DNA from: an uncultured Rhodospirillaceae bacterium | GTDB lineage: Bacteria; Pseudomonadota; Alphaproteobacteria; RF32; CAG-239 | Direction of reading: 5' to 3' | DNA: 11,120 bases | NCBI GenBank assembly: GCA_900313355.1 | Contig: OMQZ01000143.1 | Location: 1-11,120 of the forward strand | Part shown: positions 4,331 to 11,120 of the stretch, piece by piece | Layout: the number at the start of each line of letters is the position of its first letter | How positions within the stretch are numbered: position 1 is the stretch's first letter | Program-made: the position numbers and the translations under genes | The notes under the pieces: model-generated | Seen by the model: only the letters and a program-made list of their open reading frames with translations | Databases searched by the model: none | Told to the model about the DNA's origin: nothing

Positions 4331-5341
4331 ATGAAAAAATTTGTGAGATTTTTTATGTTTGTCAGTGTTTTGTTTTATGGAGGAAATTCAATGGCACTCA
4401 GTATGCAAGAACAAACAATCGTGAAGGTGTCGGCAAATGCGGCACTCGGTCATCAGGAAAACTTAAAAAGTGCGTTAATATACGGGCTTGAAGAAGGCGT
4501 AAGTATTAATGAATTTAAGGAAATTTTGGTGCAAGCGTATGCTTACTGCGGATTTCCAAGAAGTTTAAATGCACTTTCGACTTTGATGAATGTGGTCAAT
4601 GAACGAGGAAATCGCGATATGATCGGGGTTAAAGCAGGGCCAAAGCCTGAAGGAAATGCGCTTGAATATGGGACACAAAATCAGACAAAATTGGTCGGCT
4701 CCGAAGTTAAAGGCGGGCTTTTTGAATTTGTGCCGCAAATTGATGAATATCTTAAAGCACATCTTTTTGGAGATATATTTTCGCGTGATAATGTGAGCTG
4801 GAAGACAAGAGAGATTGCAACCGTTGCGATGCTTGCCGTTCGTGATGGTGTTGACGGGCAATTAAATGCGCATATTAACATAGCAAAGCATAACGGGGTA
4901 TCAGATGAAGATGTGGCGCAAATTTTAGAGATAGCTCGTGCGGAAAAAGCCAAAAATGTTATGTTTGGCTTTGGGGAGCCTAATACGGCCTATGCACAAT
5001 ATTTTGTCGGCAACAGTTATTTGAAGCCGTTGATTTCGGAAGGCGTCGGTATTGCTAACGTTACATTTGAGCCAAAATGCAGAAACAATTGGCATATTCA
5101 TCACAAAGGCGGACAGATTTTGCTCGTTGTCGCCGGTCGCGGTTGGTATCAGGAATGGGGCAAAGAAGCCCAAGAATTAAAACCGGGTGATGTTGTGAAT
5201 ATTGCGCCGGAGGTAAAACACTGGCATGGTGCGGCAAAGGACAGTTGGTTTACGCATATTGCGATAGCCGTTCCGGCAGAGGGCAGCTCAAATGAGTGGT
5301 TAGAGCCTGTTTCTGATGAAGAATATAATAAATTAAAATAA
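4331..5341 (+). CDS. Exported carboxymuconolactone decarboxylase-like/cupin fusion
   Basis: A 336-aa protein with a Sec signal peptide (1-22: basic MKKF, hydrophobic core, cleavage near NSMA-LS). Two CMD/AhpD-fold segments follow (about 26-95 and 135-210), the second with the family's KTREIATVAMLA...QLNAHINIAKHNGVS pattern. Neither contains the CxxC of peroxidase-type AhpD, so alkyl-hydroperoxidase chemistry is not supported. A C-terminal cupin spans about 240-318. Cupin motif 1 is HIHHKGGQ (255-262), with His255 and His257 as metal ligands and Gln262 where Glu is usual; His297 in KHWHG gives the third ligand. Proteins of this build are common next to flavodoxins and hydrolases in anaerobes, and their substrate is not established. 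GAGG at 4321-4324, 6 nt before the ATG, fixes the start. It is the first gene of the operon driven by the MerR-type promoter, 15 bp before the next flavodoxin gene. Confidence 0.88.
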   Translation: MKKFVRFFMFVSVLFYGGNSMALSMQEQTIVKVSANAALGHQENLKSALIYGLEEGVSINEFKEILVQAYAYCGFPRSLNALSTLMNVVNERGNRDMIGVKAGPKPEGNALEYGTQNQTKLVGSEVKGGLFEFVPQIDEYLKAHLFGDIFSRDNVSWKTREIATVAMLAVRDGVDGQLNAHINIAKHNGVSDEDVAQILEIARAEKAKNVMFGFGEPNTAYAQYFVGNSYLKPLISEGVGIANVTFEPKCRNNWHIHHKGGQILLVVAGRGWYQEWGKEAQELKPGDVVNIAPEVKHWHGAAKDSWFTHIAIAVPAEGSSNEWLEPVSDEEYNKLK

Positions 5342-5356
5342 AAGGAGTTTTTTAAT

Positions 5357-5953
5357 ATGAAAAAAATAATTACATTTATGGTAGCAATTTTATTTAACTT
5401 TAATGTACAAGCACAGGAGAATAATATGTCAAATTCAAAATCACTCGTCGTTTATTTTTCAAAAACAGGTGAGCAATACAGCGTTGGAAATATCAGCGAA
5501 GGCAACACGGCAATTATTGCCAAGATGATCGCCAAAAAGACAGGTGCAGATTTGTTTGAAGTGAAAGTTAAAGATGACAGTTATCCTAAAGCCTATAAAG
5601 CTTTGACCGAAGTTGCCTTAAAAGAAAAACAGGCGAATGCTCGTCCTGAGGTTGACGGAGATGTTGCCAATTTTGAAGATTATGATGTCGTGTTTTTGGG
5701 GTCGCCGAATTGGTGGGCAGATATGCCGATGGTTTTATACAGCTTTATTGAATCGCATGATTGGCAGGGTAAGAAAGTTGCACCGTTTGTTACGCATGAG
5801 GGAAGCGGTTTATCATCTATTCCGAGCAAAATTAAATCAGCAACGAATGCAGAGGTTTTAGACGGTTTTGAAGTTTATGGGCATGTGGCTCAAAATAAAA
5901 AAGACGAAGCGTCAGCGAAAGTTGATGCATGGCTTAAAAAACTAGGGCTTTAG
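5357..5953 (+). CDS. Flavodoxin with signal peptide and alternative internal start
   Basis: A 198-aa flavodoxin_4-type protein. Residues 1-19 form a Sec signal (MKKIITFMVAILFNFNVQA, cleavage VQA-QE). The flavodoxin core starts at Leu30 with LVVYFSKTGEQ (FMN phosphate loop from Ser35) and continues with EGNTAIIA (48-55), GSPNWWADMPM (115-125) and THEGSGL (146-152), all typical flavin-binding loops. AGGAG at 5343-5347 serves the first ATG. Inside the signal region a second AGGAG (5415-5419) lies 6 nt before an in-frame ATG (5426, Met24), exactly where a cytosolic flavodoxin would begin. The gene may therefore make both an exported and a cytosolic form, or the signal peptide was joined recently to a gene that once started at Met24. 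It is the second gene of the operon, 21 bp before the Isf-like reductase gene. Confidence 0.88.
   Translation: MKKIITFMVAILFNFNVQAQENNMSNSKSLVVYFSKTGEQYSVGNISEGNTAIIAKMIAKKTGADLFEVKVKDDSYPKAYKALTEVALKEKQANARPEVDGDVANFEDYDVVFLGSPNWWADMPMVLYSFIESHDWQGKKVAPFVTHEGSGLSSIPSKIKSATNAEVLDGFEVYGHVAQNKKDEASAKVDAWLKKLGL
5415..5428 (+). promoter_or_regulatory. Internal ribosome binding site and start inside flavodoxin gene
   Basis: The 14-base string AGGAGAATAATATG occurs here in frame with the flavodoxin. It recurs identically at 6603-6616 as the start region of the alpha/beta hydrolase gene of the same operon, where it is the real initiation site. That copy shows that the cell can use such a signal. 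Initiation here would give a 175-aa cytosolic flavodoxin without the signal peptide. Confidence 0.55.
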
Positions 5954-5974
5954 TTTAAGGCTTGGAGGCAGTGT

Positions 5975-6604
5975 ATGAAAGTTTTGCTTATTAACGGGTC
6001 GCCGCATAAAAACGGATGCACAAATGCGGCTTTGGAAGAAGTTTCAAAGACCTTAAAAGAGGAAGGTATTGAAACCGAAATTTACCATATCGGTGTTAAG
6101 CCGATATCAGGATGCATGGGGTGTTATGCTTGCCGAAAGACAGGTCAATGCGTTATTAAAGACGGCGTTAACGAGTTTGTGGAAAAGGCAAAGGAGTTTG
6201 ATGGGTTTGTTTTCGGGTCACCCGTTCATTATGCGGCCGCTTGCGGAAGTATTACCTCTTTTATGGACCGCGTGTTTTTTGTTGCTTTCGGGCGCAAAGA
6301 TGTGTTTGTGCATAAGCCCGCTGCCGCGGTGGTGAGTGCCAGACGTGCAGGAACGACGGCAACACTTGACCAACTGAACAAATACTTTTTGATGACACAA
6401 ATGCCTGTGATTGCGGGACGCTATTGGAATATGGTTCATGGTGCAACATCTGAAGAAGTCAAGCAGGATTTGGAAGGTTTGCAGAATATGCGTATTTTGG
6501 CACGTAATATGGCTTGGCATTTAAAATGTGTTGAGGCCGGCAAAAAAGCAGGTGTTCAAATGCCGAAAGAAGAAGAAATCATTTTTACGAACTTTATCAG
6601 ATAG
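5975..6604 (+). CDS. Iron-sulfur flavoprotein (Isf)-like NAD(P)H/FMN reductase
   Basis: A 209-aa protein of the NADPH-dependent FMN reductase/flavodoxin superfamily. The N-terminal strand and phosphate-binding loop are VLLINGSPHKNGCTNAAL (3-20). The compact cysteine motif C47-x2-C50-x2-C53-x5-C59 has the spacing used for the [4Fe-4S] cluster of archaeal iron-sulfur flavoproteins. GSPVHYAAACGSITSFMDR (81-99) is the second flavin loop plus dimer helix. Similar proteins in anaerobes reduce O2, H2O2, quinones or aromatic electrophiles, with electrons from ferredoxin or NAD(P)H. Whether the cluster is bound here is inference. There is no signal peptide, so it is cytosolic, unlike its exported neighbours. 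GGAGG at 5964-5968, 6 nt before the ATG, fixes the start. It is the third gene of the operon; the gap to the hydrolase is 9 bp. Confidence 0.87.
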   Translation: MKVLLINGSPHKNGCTNAALEEVSKTLKEEGIETEIYHIGVKPISGCMGCYACRKTGQCVIKDGVNEFVEKAKEFDGFVFGSPVHYAAACGSITSFMDRVFFVAFGRKDVFVHKPAAAVVSARRAGTTATLDQLNKYFLMTQMPVIAGRYWNMVHGATSEEVKQDLEGLQNMRILARNMAWHLKCVEAGKKAGVQMPKEEEIIFTNFIR

Positions 6605-6613
6605 GAGAATAAT

Positions 6614-7645
6614 ATGAAATTTTATATGTATGGTTTTACTGTTTTAAGTGTTTTGATGGTGGCAAACGGTGCATGTTTTGCGGCAGACGGAGAAGGCACT
6701 TGGGACAAGGTTTTTGAAAAGAGCGATTTGGTTGATGTTCAAAAAGTGCATTTTACGAATCGTTTCGGCATAGAACTCACAGGTGATTTATATGAACCGA
6801 AAGAAAAATCGGGCGAGAAGATGGCGGCGATTGCTGTTTCGGGACCATTTGGGGCTGTTAAAGAACAATCTTCGGGGTTGTATGCACAAGAACTTGCTAA
6901 GCGCGGTTTTGTAACACTCGCCTTTGATCCGTCATTTACGGGCGAATCGGGAGGCAATGTGCGGAACGTGGCCTCGCCGGATATTAACACCGATGATTTT
7001 TCTGCCGCTGTCGATTATTTGACAACACTTCCTGAAGTTGATGCCGAAAAAATAGGTATTTTAGGGATTTGCGGCTTTGGCGGGTTCGGATTGAATGCGG
7101 CCGCACAAGATACAAGAATCAAGGCAACTGTTGCCTCCACAATGTATGATATGACTCGTGTTTCGGCAAAAGGATATAATGATTCGATGAGCGAAGATGA
7201 TTTGTATCAATTTAGAGAAACCTTGAATAATCAGCGCACGAAAGATTATCAAAACGGCACATTTGAGGGGGCAGCGGGGTTGCCTGAAAAATTAACGGGG
7301 GAAGAACCTCAATTTGTGAAAGATTATTTCGGTTATTATAAAACACCGCGCGGATTCCATGAACGCTCAATTAACTCAAACGGGCATTGGAACACGACAT
7401 CTTCTTTGTCGCTGATCACACAGCCGATTTTGGCTTATGCGGGAACAATCAAAAATGCGGTTTTGATTGTGCATGGAGAAAATGCACACAGCCGCTATTT
7501 CGGCGAAGATGCGTTCAAAAAACTCAAAGGTGACAATAAAGAGCTTTTGATTGTCGAAGGGGCAAATCATGTCGATTTGTATGATAATATGGAAAAGATT
7601 CCGTTTGATAAAATCGAAAGTTTTTATAAAACTTATTTGAAATAA
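6614..7645 (+). CDS. Exported alpha/beta hydrolase with Cys nucleophile
   Basis: A 343-aa alpha/beta-hydrolase-fold protein of the dienelactone-hydrolase-like group. Residues 1-23 are a Sec signal (cleavage near CFA-ADG). Cys21 does not sit in a proper lipobox, so a lipoprotein is unlikely. The nucleophile elbow is GICGFGG (151-157), with Cys153 replacing the common Ser, as in dienelactone hydrolase. Glu289 in VHGENAHSRYF is a candidate acid residue and His319 in GANHVDLYD the catalytic His. A variable cap-like region lies between about 175 and 270. The protein should hydrolyse a small ester, lactone or thioester in the periplasm; the substrate is not evident. AGGAG at 6603-6607, 6 nt before the ATG, overlaps the end of the preceding gene. 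It is the last gene of the operon, followed by the terminator at 7663. Co-transcription with flavoproteins suggests a stress or detoxification role (inference). Confidence 0.85.
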   Translation: MKFYMYGFTVLSVLMVANGACFAADGEGTWDKVFEKSDLVDVQKVHFTNRFGIELTGDLYEPKEKSGEKMAAIAVSGPFGAVKEQSSGLYAQELAKRGFVTLAFDPSFTGESGGNVRNVASPDINTDDFSAAVDYLTTLPEVDAEKIGILGICGFGGFGLNAAAQDTRIKATVASTMYDMTRVSAKGYNDSMSEDDLYQFRETLNNQRTKDYQNGTFEGAAGLPEKLTGEEPQFVKDYFGYYKTPRGFHERSINSNGHWNTTSSLSLITQPILAYAGTIKNAVLIVHGENAHSRYFGEDAFKKLKGDNKELLIVEGANHVDLYDNMEKIPFDKIESFYKTYLK

Positions 7646-7662
7646 GTTTTTAGAGCTGTTGG

Positions 7663-7696
7663 AAATCCGTCAGGCATAGCTTGGCGGATTTTTTTT
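7663..7696 (+). terminator. Intrinsic terminator of the redox operon
   Basis: A stem AAATCCGTCA (7663-7672) pairs with TGGCGGATTT (7682-7691), with one G-T pair and a 9-nt loop. It overlaps a run of eight T (7689-7696). It ends the operon 4331-7645 and separates it from the lysozyme-like pair. Confidence 0.85.
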
Positions 7697-7708
7697 GACA
7701 AAAAAATA

Positions 7709-7737
7709 TTGATTCTTTTTTAAGTTTATGATAAGAT
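7709..7737 (+). promoter_or_regulatory. Promoter of the lysozyme-like gene pair
   Basis: TTGATT (7709-7714) and TAAGAT (7732-7737) lie 17 bp apart, just after the terminator and about 45 bp before the ATG at 7781. A second -35-like TTGACA (7695-7700) overlaps the terminator T run but has only a poor -10 at the proper distance. No clear GGAG precedes the ATG; the purine run AAGAGA at 7768-7773 is the best ribosome-binding candidate. Confidence 0.5.
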
Positions 7738-7780
7738 TTTAGATATAAAATCAGGCTGAATTTTTTTAAGAGACTCGTTT

Positions 7781-9406
7781 ATGAATAAAAAAGAACTGAA
7801 ACAAAAAGCAAAAGAAAAGATCGTTCGCATTAAATCTGATGTGAAAACGAGGCTTGATTCTATTGATTGGAAAGAAAAAAGACGCCGTGTTAAGAGCTTT
7901 TTTCAAAAAACAGGCAAAGCTCTGCGCAAGCAATTTTTGAAATTGCCTAAAAAAGTTCGCAGAAATATCATTCTAGCTGTTGTTCTTGCCGGTTCCGTCG
8001 GAGCGGTTAAAGTTGGAATGGATATAAAAAAGGTTGTTGACGATTATAAACAAAAGACTGAACAACAACGTCAACAAAAGCTTTTTGAAGATAAATTGAA
8101 ACAAAAATATCAAATTACCGATAAAGAAAGTTTTCAAAAACTTTATGAAGATGCTTTGCCGTTGATTCAAGTTTCAATGCTTCCGACAGAGTGTTTGATT
8201 TTGGATCCGTATTCAGACAATGGCAAGAAAGTTTGCAATACGATCGGGCTTGGCAGTTATTGGTATCCGAAAGATGGTAATCCCAAAAGTCCGGAATGGA
8301 TTTTGGCAAAAAATCATTTTGAAGAACATGGAGCACACAGTATTCCGGCTGAAACAGCGCTTGAATTAGCAGATGGGTGGTATCGACATCGTGAAGCCGG
8401 GCGTGTTTTTAAGAAAATGAGTGAGTGGCTTAATGGTTCAGAGCTTTCTGTTCACGAATTTGCGGCGATTGCGACTGTGATGTATAATAGCGAAAAAAGC
8501 GGTGCGGAGTTATGTATGTTTGTAAAAGACAATTATAAAGATGAGATGAAATGCGCACAAAAAATCGTCAGTCTTCATGCGAATTCTAAGAGGTTTAAAG
8601 GCCTTCCTAAACGGCATTTACATGAGGCATTTTTATATTTAAACTATGATAATTATACAGACAAGATGTATGATTTCTTCGTGAAAACAGGGAAAAATTC
8701 AAAAGGAAACTTTTATGCTCAAACTTCGGTTACGCAGCTTTCTGATGAAGATACACAAAAGGGCATAGATGCAATTTTATCCGGCGATAAGGATCAAATT
8801 ATTGCAACGCAAAATAAGATTTCAAGCTATATTTGTAAGGGCGGGCAAACGGTTCGAGAGATTATAAATGAAAATGTGTTAAATGAGACATATAGAAAAT
8901 CTTTGTTAAGCTTTCTTTCGCCGGACAAGAGAGAGATTTCTTTGCAAGAAGTTGTTAATGTTGAGGGTGCATCATTTGCAGAACAAAAGTATAAAGAAGC
9001 TCTTGAAGCCTATAACGCAGGTATGAAAATTGAAAAAGAGGGACAAAAAGAAAAAGCGCAACAAGAATTTCGGAAAGCTTTGAAGGGTTTTCAGGATATT
9101 ATTGACGGCGGGCACGACGGACCAGATTTACATAATGATATTGCGATTACGTATTATCATTTGGGCGAATATGAAAAGTGTATAGAAGAAAGCCGCAAGG
9201 TTTTACGAATGGGCGATGAAAACCTTTATCCAGCAGCGAATTTTAACGCGGCAATTGCTTATGAAAAAATGGGTAATATTGACGGAGCCATCAGAAATTA
9301 TGAGGCATGCGGAAAAAACAGCGGTGATTCAACAAAATTTGTGAAGAAAATTGACAGCCTTCGACTGATAAAAAATCAGGCTAATTCTTCGAGCTCAAGG
9401 GAATAG
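7781..9406 (+). CDS. Membrane-anchored lysozyme-like (GH24-type) protein with TPRs
   Basis: A 541-aa protein, probably a cell-wall hydrolase. Residues 1-61 are Lys/Arg-rich and should stay in the cytoplasm. One hydrophobic helix (about 63-80, IILAVVLAGSVGAVKVGM) anchors it, and the rest would be periplasmic. After a coiled-coil-like linker (85-112), residues 115-300 resemble phage T4/P22 lysozyme. Glu137, Asp146 and Thr154 occur as E-x8-D-x7-T-I-G-L-G, against E-x8-D-x5-T-I-G in T4 and P22. An AxxxxMYN helix (228-236) matches the family's ALxSFxFN, and GLPKRHLHEAFLYL (274-287) matches the G-L-x-x-R-R-x-x-E end motif. Cys245 and Cys258 may form a disulfide conserved in the paralogue downstream. 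Residues 320-395 are a second shared domain. About 398-516 holds three TPR-like repeats, absent from the paralogue. It is the first gene of a pair with a 14-bp gap. The lysozyme assignment comes from pattern matching by eye. Confidence 0.68.
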   Translation: MNKKELKQKAKEKIVRIKSDVKTRLDSIDWKEKRRRVKSFFQKTGKALRKQFLKLPKKVRRNIILAVVLAGSVGAVKVGMDIKKVVDDYKQKTEQQRQQKLFEDKLKQKYQITDKESFQKLYEDALPLIQVSMLPTECLILDPYSDNGKKVCNTIGLGSYWYPKDGNPKSPEWILAKNHFEEHGAHSIPAETALELADGWYRHREAGRVFKKMSEWLNGSELSVHEFAAIATVMYNSEKSGAELCMFVKDNYKDEMKCAQKIVSLHANSKRFKGLPKRHLHEAFLYLNYDNYTDKMYDFFVKTGKNSKGNFYAQTSVTQLSDEDTQKGIDAILSGDKDQIIATQNKISSYICKGGQTVREIINENVLNETYRKSLLSFLSPDKREISLQEVVNVEGASFAEQKYKEALEAYNAGMKIEKEGQKEKAQQEFRKALKGFQDIIDGGHDGPDLHNDIAITYYHLGEYEKCIEESRKVLRMGDENLYPAANFNAAIAYEKMGNIDGAIRNYEACGKNSGDSTKFVKKIDSLRLIKNQANSSSSRE

Positions 9407-9408
9407 AC

Positions 9409-9423
9409 AAGGAGGGCGTTTTG
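9409..9423 (+). promoter_or_regulatory. Strong Shine-Dalgarno deciding a TTG start
   Basis: AAGGAGGG (9409-9416) lies 4-5 nt before TTG at 9421. No in-frame ATG occurs for about 140 codons, and the N-terminus read from TTG (M-NKEEF) aligns with MNKKEL of the upstream paralogue. TTG is therefore the start. Confidence 0.8.
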
Positions 9424-10725
9424 AATAAAGAAGAATTTAAGCGAGGTCTAGAGAAAAACAGCGAACTTCGTAGACGACGCGCAAATGCGGTCGTGCAACA
9501 GACTTCTTTTAAACAAAAGCGTTCGGCTGTTCGCACTTTTTTTGATAAAGCAGATAAAAAAGAATATCGCCGCTTTAAATCTTTGCCGAAAGTTTTAAGA
9601 AAAGCGGCTCTTTACGGAATAGTTCTTTTTGCAACATGGAAGACGGTCGATATATTGCCACAGAAAATTAATAATTATCAGGCAAATAAAGAAAAAGACA
9701 GCCTCGAAACCCCTGAGATTAAGCCAGTTAGTGTGGAAGAATATAATAATAACATTAAAAGTGAGCTTGAAAAAAAATATGCAATTTCGGACAGAGAGAG
9801 TTTTGATAAGCTTTATGAAGCATCGCTTCCTTTAATTCAGATGTCGCTGTTTTCGGTAGAGGCTTTTGCTTTAGATTCTTATTCGGATCGAAAAGGCGCA
9901 TCTGCCAATACGGCAGGTATCGGATTGTTTTATTATCCGGCGAGCGGAGATCCTGATGATACAAAATGGGTTCAAACTTCAACATATATTCGGAAACATG
10001 GAACGATTAAAGAAACGCTGGAATCAGCCTTTAAGGGTGTGAACGGTTGGTATCGATCTTTGGATAACGGTGCTGTTTGTGATCAGATGTATGAAATGTT
10101 AAGAGGGGCAGAACTTACTCCTTATCAGTTTGCAAGCATTGCAACCGTTCGTTATAACAGTAAGTCAAAAGGTAATGATATATGCCGTTTTGTGCGTCGT
10201 AACTATCAAAATCCGCTTGCGTGTGCGCGAAGAATTGCCTCGTATCCTGTACCAGAAAACTTTCCGGGGACGGCAAAACGCCGAATGCATGAGGCTGCAC
10301 TCTATTTAAATTATGGCGATTATGTTCAGAAAATGTATCAGTCTGAGACCAAACTGGTCAAGCGTAGCGGTGGGGCTCGTATTTATGCAGCACCTGCAAT
10401 GAATATGAGATCGCAAGATGTTCTTGCGTGTCGGCAAGCGTTGAGCTCAGGAAATAAGGAAGCTATTATTTCTTCACAAAATCGTATTTTTCAGCCAATC
10501 AGGGGTTCTCAATCAATCTCAGATTTAGTTAAAGCAGAGATTTCTGACGAACAGTATCGGGATAATATTTTGAAATATTGTTTTAAGGAAGAAGAGAGTA
10601 TTACATTAGATGATGCAATTGAATTGGCTCAAGCAGATGAGGCAACAGCAAAGAAGACGTCAAAACGTTTTGGATCAAAGGCTGCGATTGCGCTGATTGG
10701 GAACTATCGGAGCGGCGGTCGATAA
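9421..10725 (+). CDS. Membrane-anchored lysozyme-like (GH24-type) protein, paralogue without TPRs
   Basis: A 434-aa paralogue of the preceding protein with the same layout. It has a Lys/Arg-rich cytoplasmic tail (1-60), a short hydrophobic helix (about 61-78, with LYGIVLFATW), a linker, then a lysozyme-like domain (125-310). The putative triad Glu147, Asp156 and Thr164 is kept with identical E-x8-D-x7-T spacing, followed by AGIG instead of IGLG. The ATVRYN helix (241-246) and GTAKRRMHEAALYL (283-296) match the family's later motifs. Cys255 and Cys268 align with Cys245 and Cys258 of the paralogue and may form a disulfide. The second shared domain (about 325-395) is present, but the protein ends soon after in a basic tail (410-434), without TPRs. 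It probably cleaves or binds peptidoglycan in the periplasm, perhaps as a partner of the first protein. It starts with TTG behind a very strong ribosome binding site. Confidence 0.66.
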   Translation: MNKEEFKRGLEKNSELRRRRANAVVQQTSFKQKRSAVRTFFDKADKKEYRRFKSLPKVLRKAALYGIVLFATWKTVDILPQKINNYQANKEKDSLETPEIKPVSVEEYNNNIKSELEKKYAISDRESFDKLYEASLPLIQMSLFSVEAFALDSYSDRKGASANTAGIGLFYYPASGDPDDTKWVQTSTYIRKHGTIKETLESAFKGVNGWYRSLDNGAVCDQMYEMLRGAELTPYQFASIATVRYNSKSKGNDICRFVRRNYQNPLACARRIASYPVPENFPGTAKRRMHEAALYLNYGDYVQKMYQSETKLVKRSGGARIYAAPAMNMRSQDVLACRQALSSGNKEAIISSQNRIFQPIRGSQSISDLVKAEISDEQYRDNILKYCFKEEESITLDDAIELAQADEATAKKTSKRFGSKAAIALIGNYRSGGR

Positions 10726-10786: not shown

Positions 10787-10863
<77 letters not shown>

Positions 10864-11049: not shown

Positions 11050-11120
11050 ATGCGCTTTAACATCGGAGATATAGTATACCATGAAACCTTTGGATTAGGA
11101 AAGGTTCTAGGTATAACAAA
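11050..11120 (+). CDS. N-terminus of a CarD/Tudor-like protein, cut by window end
   Basis: Only 23 complete codons are visible (MRFNIGDIVYHETFGLGKVL, then GIT). GAGG at 11041-11044, 5 nt before the ATG, and the promoter at 10956 support a real gene. The pattern F-x-I-G-D-x-V-x-H-x-x-F-G-x-G-x-V resembles the small beta-barrel start of CarD/CdnL-type transcription factors and the Tudor-like tail of UvrD/PcrA helicases or DUF3553 proteins. The visible part does not separate these options, and the protein's length is unknown. Confidence 0.6.
   Translation, partial: MRFNIGDIVYHETFGLGKVLGIT

Follow-up and report, generated by a model that had tools for sequence, protein, structure and literature searches.

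The stretch of DNA analysed here (the window) comprises the 11,120 nucleotides of contig OMQZ01000143.1 (assembly GCA_900313355.1) from an uncultured Rhodospirillaceae bacterium of the GTDB lineage RF32; CAG-239. The draft genome to which it belongs, as contig C80, measures 1.24 Mb and is 77.8% complete. The window carries two adjacent, related open reading frames (ORFs) on the + strand, which encode the lysozyme-like proteins p1 and p2. The first gene (7781..9406) encodes a protein of 541 amino acids (aa) that consists of a basic N-terminal tail (residues 1-63; 7781..7969), a hydrophobic segment (residues 64-82; 7970..8026), a GH24-type lysozyme domain (residues 108-300; 8102..8680), a second domain which alignments show to be common to both proteins (residues 301-385; 8681..8935), and an array of tetratricopeptide repeats (TPRs; residues 411-515; 9011..9325). 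The second gene (9421..10725) begins with TTG after a gap of 14 nt and encodes a paralogue of 434 aa with the same domain order minus the TPRs, its lysozyme and second domains spanning residues 108-400 (9742..10620). The gap holds AAGGAGGG (9409..9416, +), a ribosome-binding-type sequence read ahead of the TTG, and the homologue P0002 has its start at the same place. The proteins are 32% identical over 416 columns (E 2e-77), with 43% identity in the lysozyme parts (83/192) and 25% in the second domains (21/84). The TPRs of p1 score 35.2 bits with Pfam TPR_2 (cut-off 27), p2 has no Pfam TPR match, and 70 of the 80 rows in an alignment of relatives do have one. A search of the draft genome with p1 found only these two members. 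An earlier description made from the letters alone (the sequence-only reading) had reported tandem ORFs of shared layout with a TPR fusion in one, and the coordinates, the identity and the TPR_2 score bear this out.

The N-terminal tail carries a net charge of +19 over 63 residues in p1, where it is predicted to be cytoplasmic, and of +14 over 61 residues in p2. In a 10-row alignment K33 is invariant and F40, F41, and P56 are near-invariant, so the tail may do more than direct insertion. The hydrophobic segments, scored as the best 19-residue Kyte-Doolittle mean, lie about 60 residues from the N-terminus and reach 1.87 in p1, which is the highest value in that protein and a predicted signal anchor, and 1.26 in p2. 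Relatives also have a hydrophobic segment upstream of the domain, although its strength varies and some lie very close to the N-terminus. Hence the basic tail claimed by the sequence-only reading is real, but the membrane segment is weaker than it had implied. Two cysteines in the lysozyme domain, C245 (80/80 rows) and C258 (79/80), could pair as a disulfide. The charge pattern, the upstream segment in relatives, and the two conserved cysteines together argue for a periplasmic domain, and both proteins appear to be tethered to the inner membrane.

The lysozyme assignment begins with the catalytic pattern, which reads E137-x8-D146-x7-T154 in p1 and E147-x8-D156-x7-T164 in p2. It is followed in both by YNS and then by KR-x-x-HEA-x-LYL, just as had been noted from the sequence. 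The pattern is not a matter of chance, since among the 80 aligned rows Glu is retained in all, Asp in 78, Thr in 78 (with Ser in the other two, P0058 and P0080), and the Arg of the KR motif (R278 in p1) in 79, and eight residues separate Glu from the Asp position in every row. The expected conservation of the acidic pair in homologues is complete for Glu and falls just short of invariance for Asp. Two near-copies are not part of alignment A3, namely P0001, which shares 99% of its residues with p2, and P0010, which shares 97% with p1. Libraries of protein families did not reveal the fold by themselves: Pfam, PHROGs, and NCBIfam returned the TPRs and otherwise weak, useless matches for p1 and nothing useful for p2. 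Sequence searches of the PDB gave TPR proteins in nearly all matches listed for full-length p1 or the full-length alignment, and a single chance-level match for p2.

Structure prediction is more informative. The AlphaFold2 model of full-length p1 has a pLDDT of 91.7 and a pTM of 0.83, and the fold searches with it returned TPR or other repeat proteins, with no GH24-type protein among the best 50 matches of each; one of them listed a phi29-type wall hydrolase at a probability of 0.06. As the repeat proteins filled these searches and said nothing of the domain, residues 108-400 of p2 were modelled alone, with a pLDDT of 94.7 and a pTM of 0.93. The best structural matches of this model in the PDB (Foldseek) are GH24-type lysozymes, and a domain-only profile against the PDB likewise ranks three GH24-type lysozymes first (E 0.001-0.006), with the triad aligned to E64/D73/T79 of AcLys. 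These results support the GH24-type fold and the catalytic triad put forward in the sequence-only reading. For the p1 domain, the lysozyme fold is predicted by homology with the p2 model, in line with its conservation and the PDB profile.

Both genes are maintained, as the comparison with their orthologues in genome G004 gives dN 0.13 and dS 0.86 for p1 and dN 0.32 and dS 1.47 for p2, values which indicate purifying selection. The sequence-only reading had proposed a resident envelope-remodelling module. The observation behind it is confirmed and the interpretation is partly supported: residence agrees with the selection on both genes, the tandem pair is not shown to form a conserved module, and remodelling is still a conjecture. 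In a quick domain tree, p2 falls within a TPR-less clade of seven rows (SH-aLRT 98; 100 for its inner six), which is nested among TPR-tailed proteins. End branches in the inner six measure 0.23-0.53, against 0.07-0.09 for p1 and two neighbours, and the clade holds both rows with an Asp-to-Val change along with three changes at G156. Duplication, loss of the TPRs, and relaxed conservation of the site would be the simplest reading of this clade.

This lysozyme-like family turned up in 25 of the 152 genomes from the bacterial family, which cover 5 of 16 genera, the window's own among them. In a 289-genome sample of the class, which held few genomes of the same bacterial family, it is present only in the window's own genome. 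Judging by their isolate names, relatives come from sources such as reindeer and the rumen and omasum of yak. Two adjacent full-length copies are found in only two of the 25 carriers, the window's genome (G000) and G004, which does not establish the pair as a conserved module; some carriers (e.g., G003 and G005) end at a contig edge near the gene, by which a few pairs could have been missed. Degenerate copies occur as well. For example, the copy in G120 is broken and contains a TAA stop, and G008 retains a 114-aa ORF (L064:8083-8424) with the N-terminal anchor and a short tail, without the lysozyme and second domains. In G116 (L058), a full gene (7367-9451) is accompanied about 2 kb downstream by an orphan C-terminal part (11518-12414), which covers about half of the lysozyme-plus-second-domain profile and then a TPR.

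Taken together, p1 and p2 are probably resident, divergent GH24-related lysozymes which are anchored in the membrane and cut the peptidoglycan of their own cell. The basic tail would stay in the cytoplasm and the weak signal anchor would fix each protein to the inner membrane, so that the periplasm would contain the lysozyme domain, the second domain and, in p1, the TPRs. Most likely, they would cleave the MurNAc-GlcNAc bond in the peptidoglycan of their own cell near the membrane; muramidase activity is a prediction for both proteins. The TPRs of p1 may bind a partner that sets where or when the enzyme cuts, a role made reasonable by the precedent of NlpI, whose TPRs scaffold hydrolases. The p2 protein would be a younger, TPR-less duplicate from a clade that is losing strict conservation of the catalytic site, and it may have little enzymatic activity or may serve p1 as a binding partner.

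Several results weigh against this reading. The E-values behind the fold are modest, none of those from Foldseek being below 0.001 and those of the PDB profile being modest too. PF00959, the Pfam family of GH24, matches neither p1 nor p2 at E up to 1 and only 7 of the 80 relatives at that threshold (best E 0.0028), and hhalign, which kept 73 of the 80 rows, gives a probability of only 4 to 5 against 11 small canonical GH24 proteins. Asp is replaced by Val in two p2-like relatives, P0003 and P0004. The Asp-to-Thr spacing is 6-9 residues (x7 in 50 rows, x6 in 29, and x9 in 1), while in the published GH24 structures E-x8-(D/C)-x5-T holds with Thr after exactly five residues in all (PMC8228626). 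The hydrophobic segment of p2 is weak, and the patchy presence (25/152 genomes), the anchor-only remnant, and the broken copy suggest a dispensable gene. Finally, a GH24 domain that keeps its Glu can serve as a scaffold with no detectable activity, as SpmX shows (PMC5347347).

The spacing could be compared with that in other GH24 proteins of the same bacterial family, for which 30 PF00959 loci were fetched from among the best-scoring matches and hence lean to canonical forms; 29 were used, as L094 held no readable ORF. Here five residues separate Asp or Cys from Thr in 24 ORFs and four do so in 5, and so the x5 rule is not absolute. With a spacing of 6-9 against 4-5, and with PF00959 missing p1, p2, and most of their relatives, the two proteins represent a divergent GH24-related family rather than filed members of PF00959. 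Large size by itself is not exceptional, contrary to the sequence-only reading, as among the 29 readable ORFs 18 are longer than 205 aa. At E 0.01, PF00959 has matches in 98 of the 136 genomes scanned from the bacterial family (89 above the cut-off), many of the matches in frames of 270-700 aa, and GH24 proteins have apparently undergone a lineage-wide expansion in this bacterial family. The second domain gives a mixed result in hhalign: on its own it matches none of the small canonical GH24 proteins, and the p1 region 300-410 alone has no match to the other large GH24 ORFs (probability 0.9), yet the alignment of the 100-400 profile with those large ORFs extends into it.

The main alternative is that the proteins are scaffolds in the manner of SpmX, in which a lysozyme domain with little or no catalysis binds peptidoglycan or partners. 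SpmX itself retains the Glu but showed no detectable activity, and most of it has been argued to lie in the cytoplasm (PMC5347347). This explanation deserves to be taken seriously, although it is considerably less probable than an active enzyme. The TPR-tailed majority of relatives, down to 31% identity to p1, keeps both Glu and Asp with Thr changed to Ser in just two; the Arg of the KR motif persists across all rows save one; and the layout of SpmX, with an N-terminal lysozyme domain and two C-terminal helices, is the reverse of that seen here.

A phage origin, either as the endolysin of a prophage remnant or as a lysozyme that kills the infected cell in defence, is improbable. GH24 domains are typical of phage endolysins, and weak N-terminal hydrophobic segments resemble those of signal-arrest-release (SAR) endolysins. 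However, 50,697 phage records contain no relative of p1 or p2, and a pattern scan of IMG/VR found none either. The ten other window proteins scanned show no phage-lysis or structural family match (one has a flavodoxin match, E 0.0005), in agreement with the earlier remark that no holin or phage gene is adjacent, and PADLOC, run on p1, p2, and three further window proteins, gave no match. Those neighbours that have been named so far resemble normal chromosomal genes; those at 20 other loci were only intercompared. The last alternative, an unrelated helical fold with a chance E-x8-D...T pattern, would accord with the lack of a Pfam GH24 match for p1 or p2, but two confident models, the second with lysozymes as its top structural matches, together with the aligned triad and the conservation over 80 rows make it very improbable indeed.

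Upstream of p1 (4331-7645) lie genes for a CMD-cupin protein, a flavodoxin, an FMN reductase, and a hydrolase, the last of which resembles the UilS lactonase (65.7 bits, cut-off 400). The same four genes precede the family gene in G005, and the same hydrolase lies upstream of the G004 pair. Beyond close relatives, no conserved gene neighbourhood was found over 21 loci, which comprise the window and 20 genomes (21 of the 25 carriers; G005, G105, G148, and G150 were left out, G005 being viewed later as L044). A tRNA-Met gene stands downstream of p2 in the window (10787-10863) and downstream of the pair in G004. A tRNA-associated island was considered as an explanation, as the pair lies upstream of tRNA-Met in both G000 and G004, and was rejected, as 17 of 22 scanned loci are without any tRNA. 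At the G004 locus (L045:14117-14332), 25 bases from the 3' end of tRNA-Met and its flank, AATCCTTCTCCCGCAACCAATAAAA, are present in two copies at a distance of 191 bases, against a single such place in the window, at 10845; G004 probably has a small insertion at the end of this tRNA.

In the same genome as the window, another contig (G000:C146; L102:2122-2589) encodes a small GH24 protein with E-x8-C-x5-T, which matches PHROG endolysin 7 (E 2.5e-19) and adjoins tail-fibre-type genes and small ORFs, and which thus belongs to a phage or prophage. Elsewhere in the window, the N-terminus of the protein at 59-637 looks prepilin-like, with an N_methyl score of 15.9 bits that falls short of the cut-off of 21.2, and the minus strand at 639-1460 encodes a protein with an RgpF-type rhamnan synthesis domain (124.5 bits). 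At the far end, 11050-11120 holds the start of an ORF, MRFNIGDIVYHETFGLGKVLGI, presumably CarD/CdnL-like.

Anchors and lysozyme cartridges appear to recombine among the relatives. Of the 18 long PF00959 ORFs, 15 have a best 19-residue hydrophobicity of at least 1.2 upstream of Glu, L066 and L078 score 0.95, and L090 is negative; these ORFs are stop-to-stop frames, in which a few of the segments may precede the true start. L073 (gene 9280-11355 of L095) agrees with P0067, a member of the window family, in 347 of the 352 residues that lead up to a break, after which it carries a different, canonical GH24 cartridge and no TPR. Similarly, L065 (gene 8743-10392 of L096) matches P0065 at 57 of 60 positions just before a break and diverges after it. 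In the genus g13, five examined genomes have such a gene at the same locus, as judged from shared flanking genes (mostly about 48-95% identical, one small one 35-47%) and beside rnf-type genes named by eye. The cartridge there is of the window type in G078, G090, and G103 and canonical in G081 and G108, with gene identities of 27-36% between types, 45-47% among the window-type genes, and 38% between the canonical ones. At least three cartridge changes are required by a quick tree built from 27 anchors.

The window's own locus offers a further example in G005 (L044), where the family gene is 67% identical to p1 and 28% to p2 over residues 1-60. Over residues 108-160 it is 62% identical to p2 and 47% to p1, over 161-220 60% and 42%, and over 221-300 57% to both. 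The full-length copy of this gene, P0003, encodes 427 aa and lacks a TPR tail; by these identities, a p1-like anchor at this locus is joined to a p2-like cartridge without TPRs. The G005 contig stops within the gene, and another gene may therefore lie beyond it. Alignment A5 was made without L047 and the fragments in L058 and L062, and the equally cut G005 row (L013) was kept.

These patterns could reflect a system of constant anchor and exchangeable cartridge, in which recombination swaps periplasmic lysozyme cartridges, either canonical GH24 or divergent GH24-TPR, behind the tail and anchor at fixed loci, with the window pair as one exchange site; we put this forward tentatively, as a possibility with the balance somewhat against it. 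The cartridge is perhaps selected by changing cell-wall chemistry, inhibitors, or phages. Some aspects weaken the case. P0067 is a single 5,534-base contig, and hence a chimeric assembly may explain its pairing with L073; the 27-row N-terminal tree is quick, with one long branch flagged and somewhat clustered labels; and ordinary ectopic recombination would suffice for the pattern with no dedicated system. As the gene evolves fast within one type, low identity between types is no proof of a swap by itself, and the abrupt break between L073 and P0067 is the stronger sign. A separate observation concerns the close orthologues L060 and L061 (G087 and G088). Most of their full 50-residue blocks share 39-48 residues, but the values fall to 31/50 and 24/50 at residues 353-459, which lie within the lysozyme domain, and the C-terminal end scores 17/29. 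As dS is likewise raised in the 24/50 block (1.68), imported sequence is possible.

The p1 and p2 proteins are relatives of phage enzymes that cut the cell wall, kept as ordinary bacterial genes. To our knowledge, SpmX is the precedent for a phage-type lysozyme domain turned bacterial membrane protein. The present family would be the second such radiation, of a different build, within an uncultured lineage of gut bacteria from the same class, and most of its catalytic site is intact. If active, it shows how a bacterium keeps a lytic enzyme leashed at its own inner membrane, and if inactive, it represents a second loss of lysis; exchange of cartridges behind an anchor, if true, would diversify a cell-wall enzyme by an unusual route. 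A literature search, with subscription journals mostly outside its scope, found no paper on this family. Overall, the family consists of resident, anchored, divergent GH24-related proteins, most of them with TPRs, and with evidence of modular exchange.

Among known systems, the GH24 phage-type lysozymes (AcLys 6et6, LysF1 7m5i, P22 2anv, and T4 lysozyme) share with p1 and p2 the predicted fold, the x8 spacing of Glu and Asp, the TIG-type turn, the Tyr-Asn and Arg-x3-Glu positions, and the order of motifs. They differ from them in the Asp-to-Thr spacing, and p1 and p2 have in addition a basic tail and anchor, a second domain, TPRs (in p1), and no phage setting found. The phage P1 Lyz protein is a SAR endolysin. 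From SAR endolysins such as R21 (3hde) and DLP12 (4zpu), p1 and p2 are set apart by the roughly 60 basic residues that precede the segment, by the lack of a lysis-gene setting, and by their much greater length. The large PF00959 proteins of the same bacterial family (e.g., L065, L071, and L073) are likewise chromosomal and apparently exported; L065 and L073 have the N-terminal anchor part in common with members of the window family and are without the TPR tail of the relatives aligned with them, and the large PF00959 proteins carry an Asp or Cys triad with x4-5 spacing, unlike p1 and p2. NlpI-type periplasmic scaffolds similarly pair a TPR module with cell-wall hydrolases, although NlpI is a separate outer-membrane lipoprotein (PMC7049810) while p1 unites TPRs and lysozyme in one chain. 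The closest precedent is SpmX of Caulobacterales (6h9d), likewise a GH24-type domain in a chromosomal alphaproteobacterial membrane protein, in which the N-terminal lysozyme domain is followed by a negatively charged, proline-rich linker and two C-terminal membrane helices (PMC5347347). The p1 and p2 proteins depart from that layout with their N-terminal anchor, C-terminal second domain or TPRs, and predicted periplasmic location.

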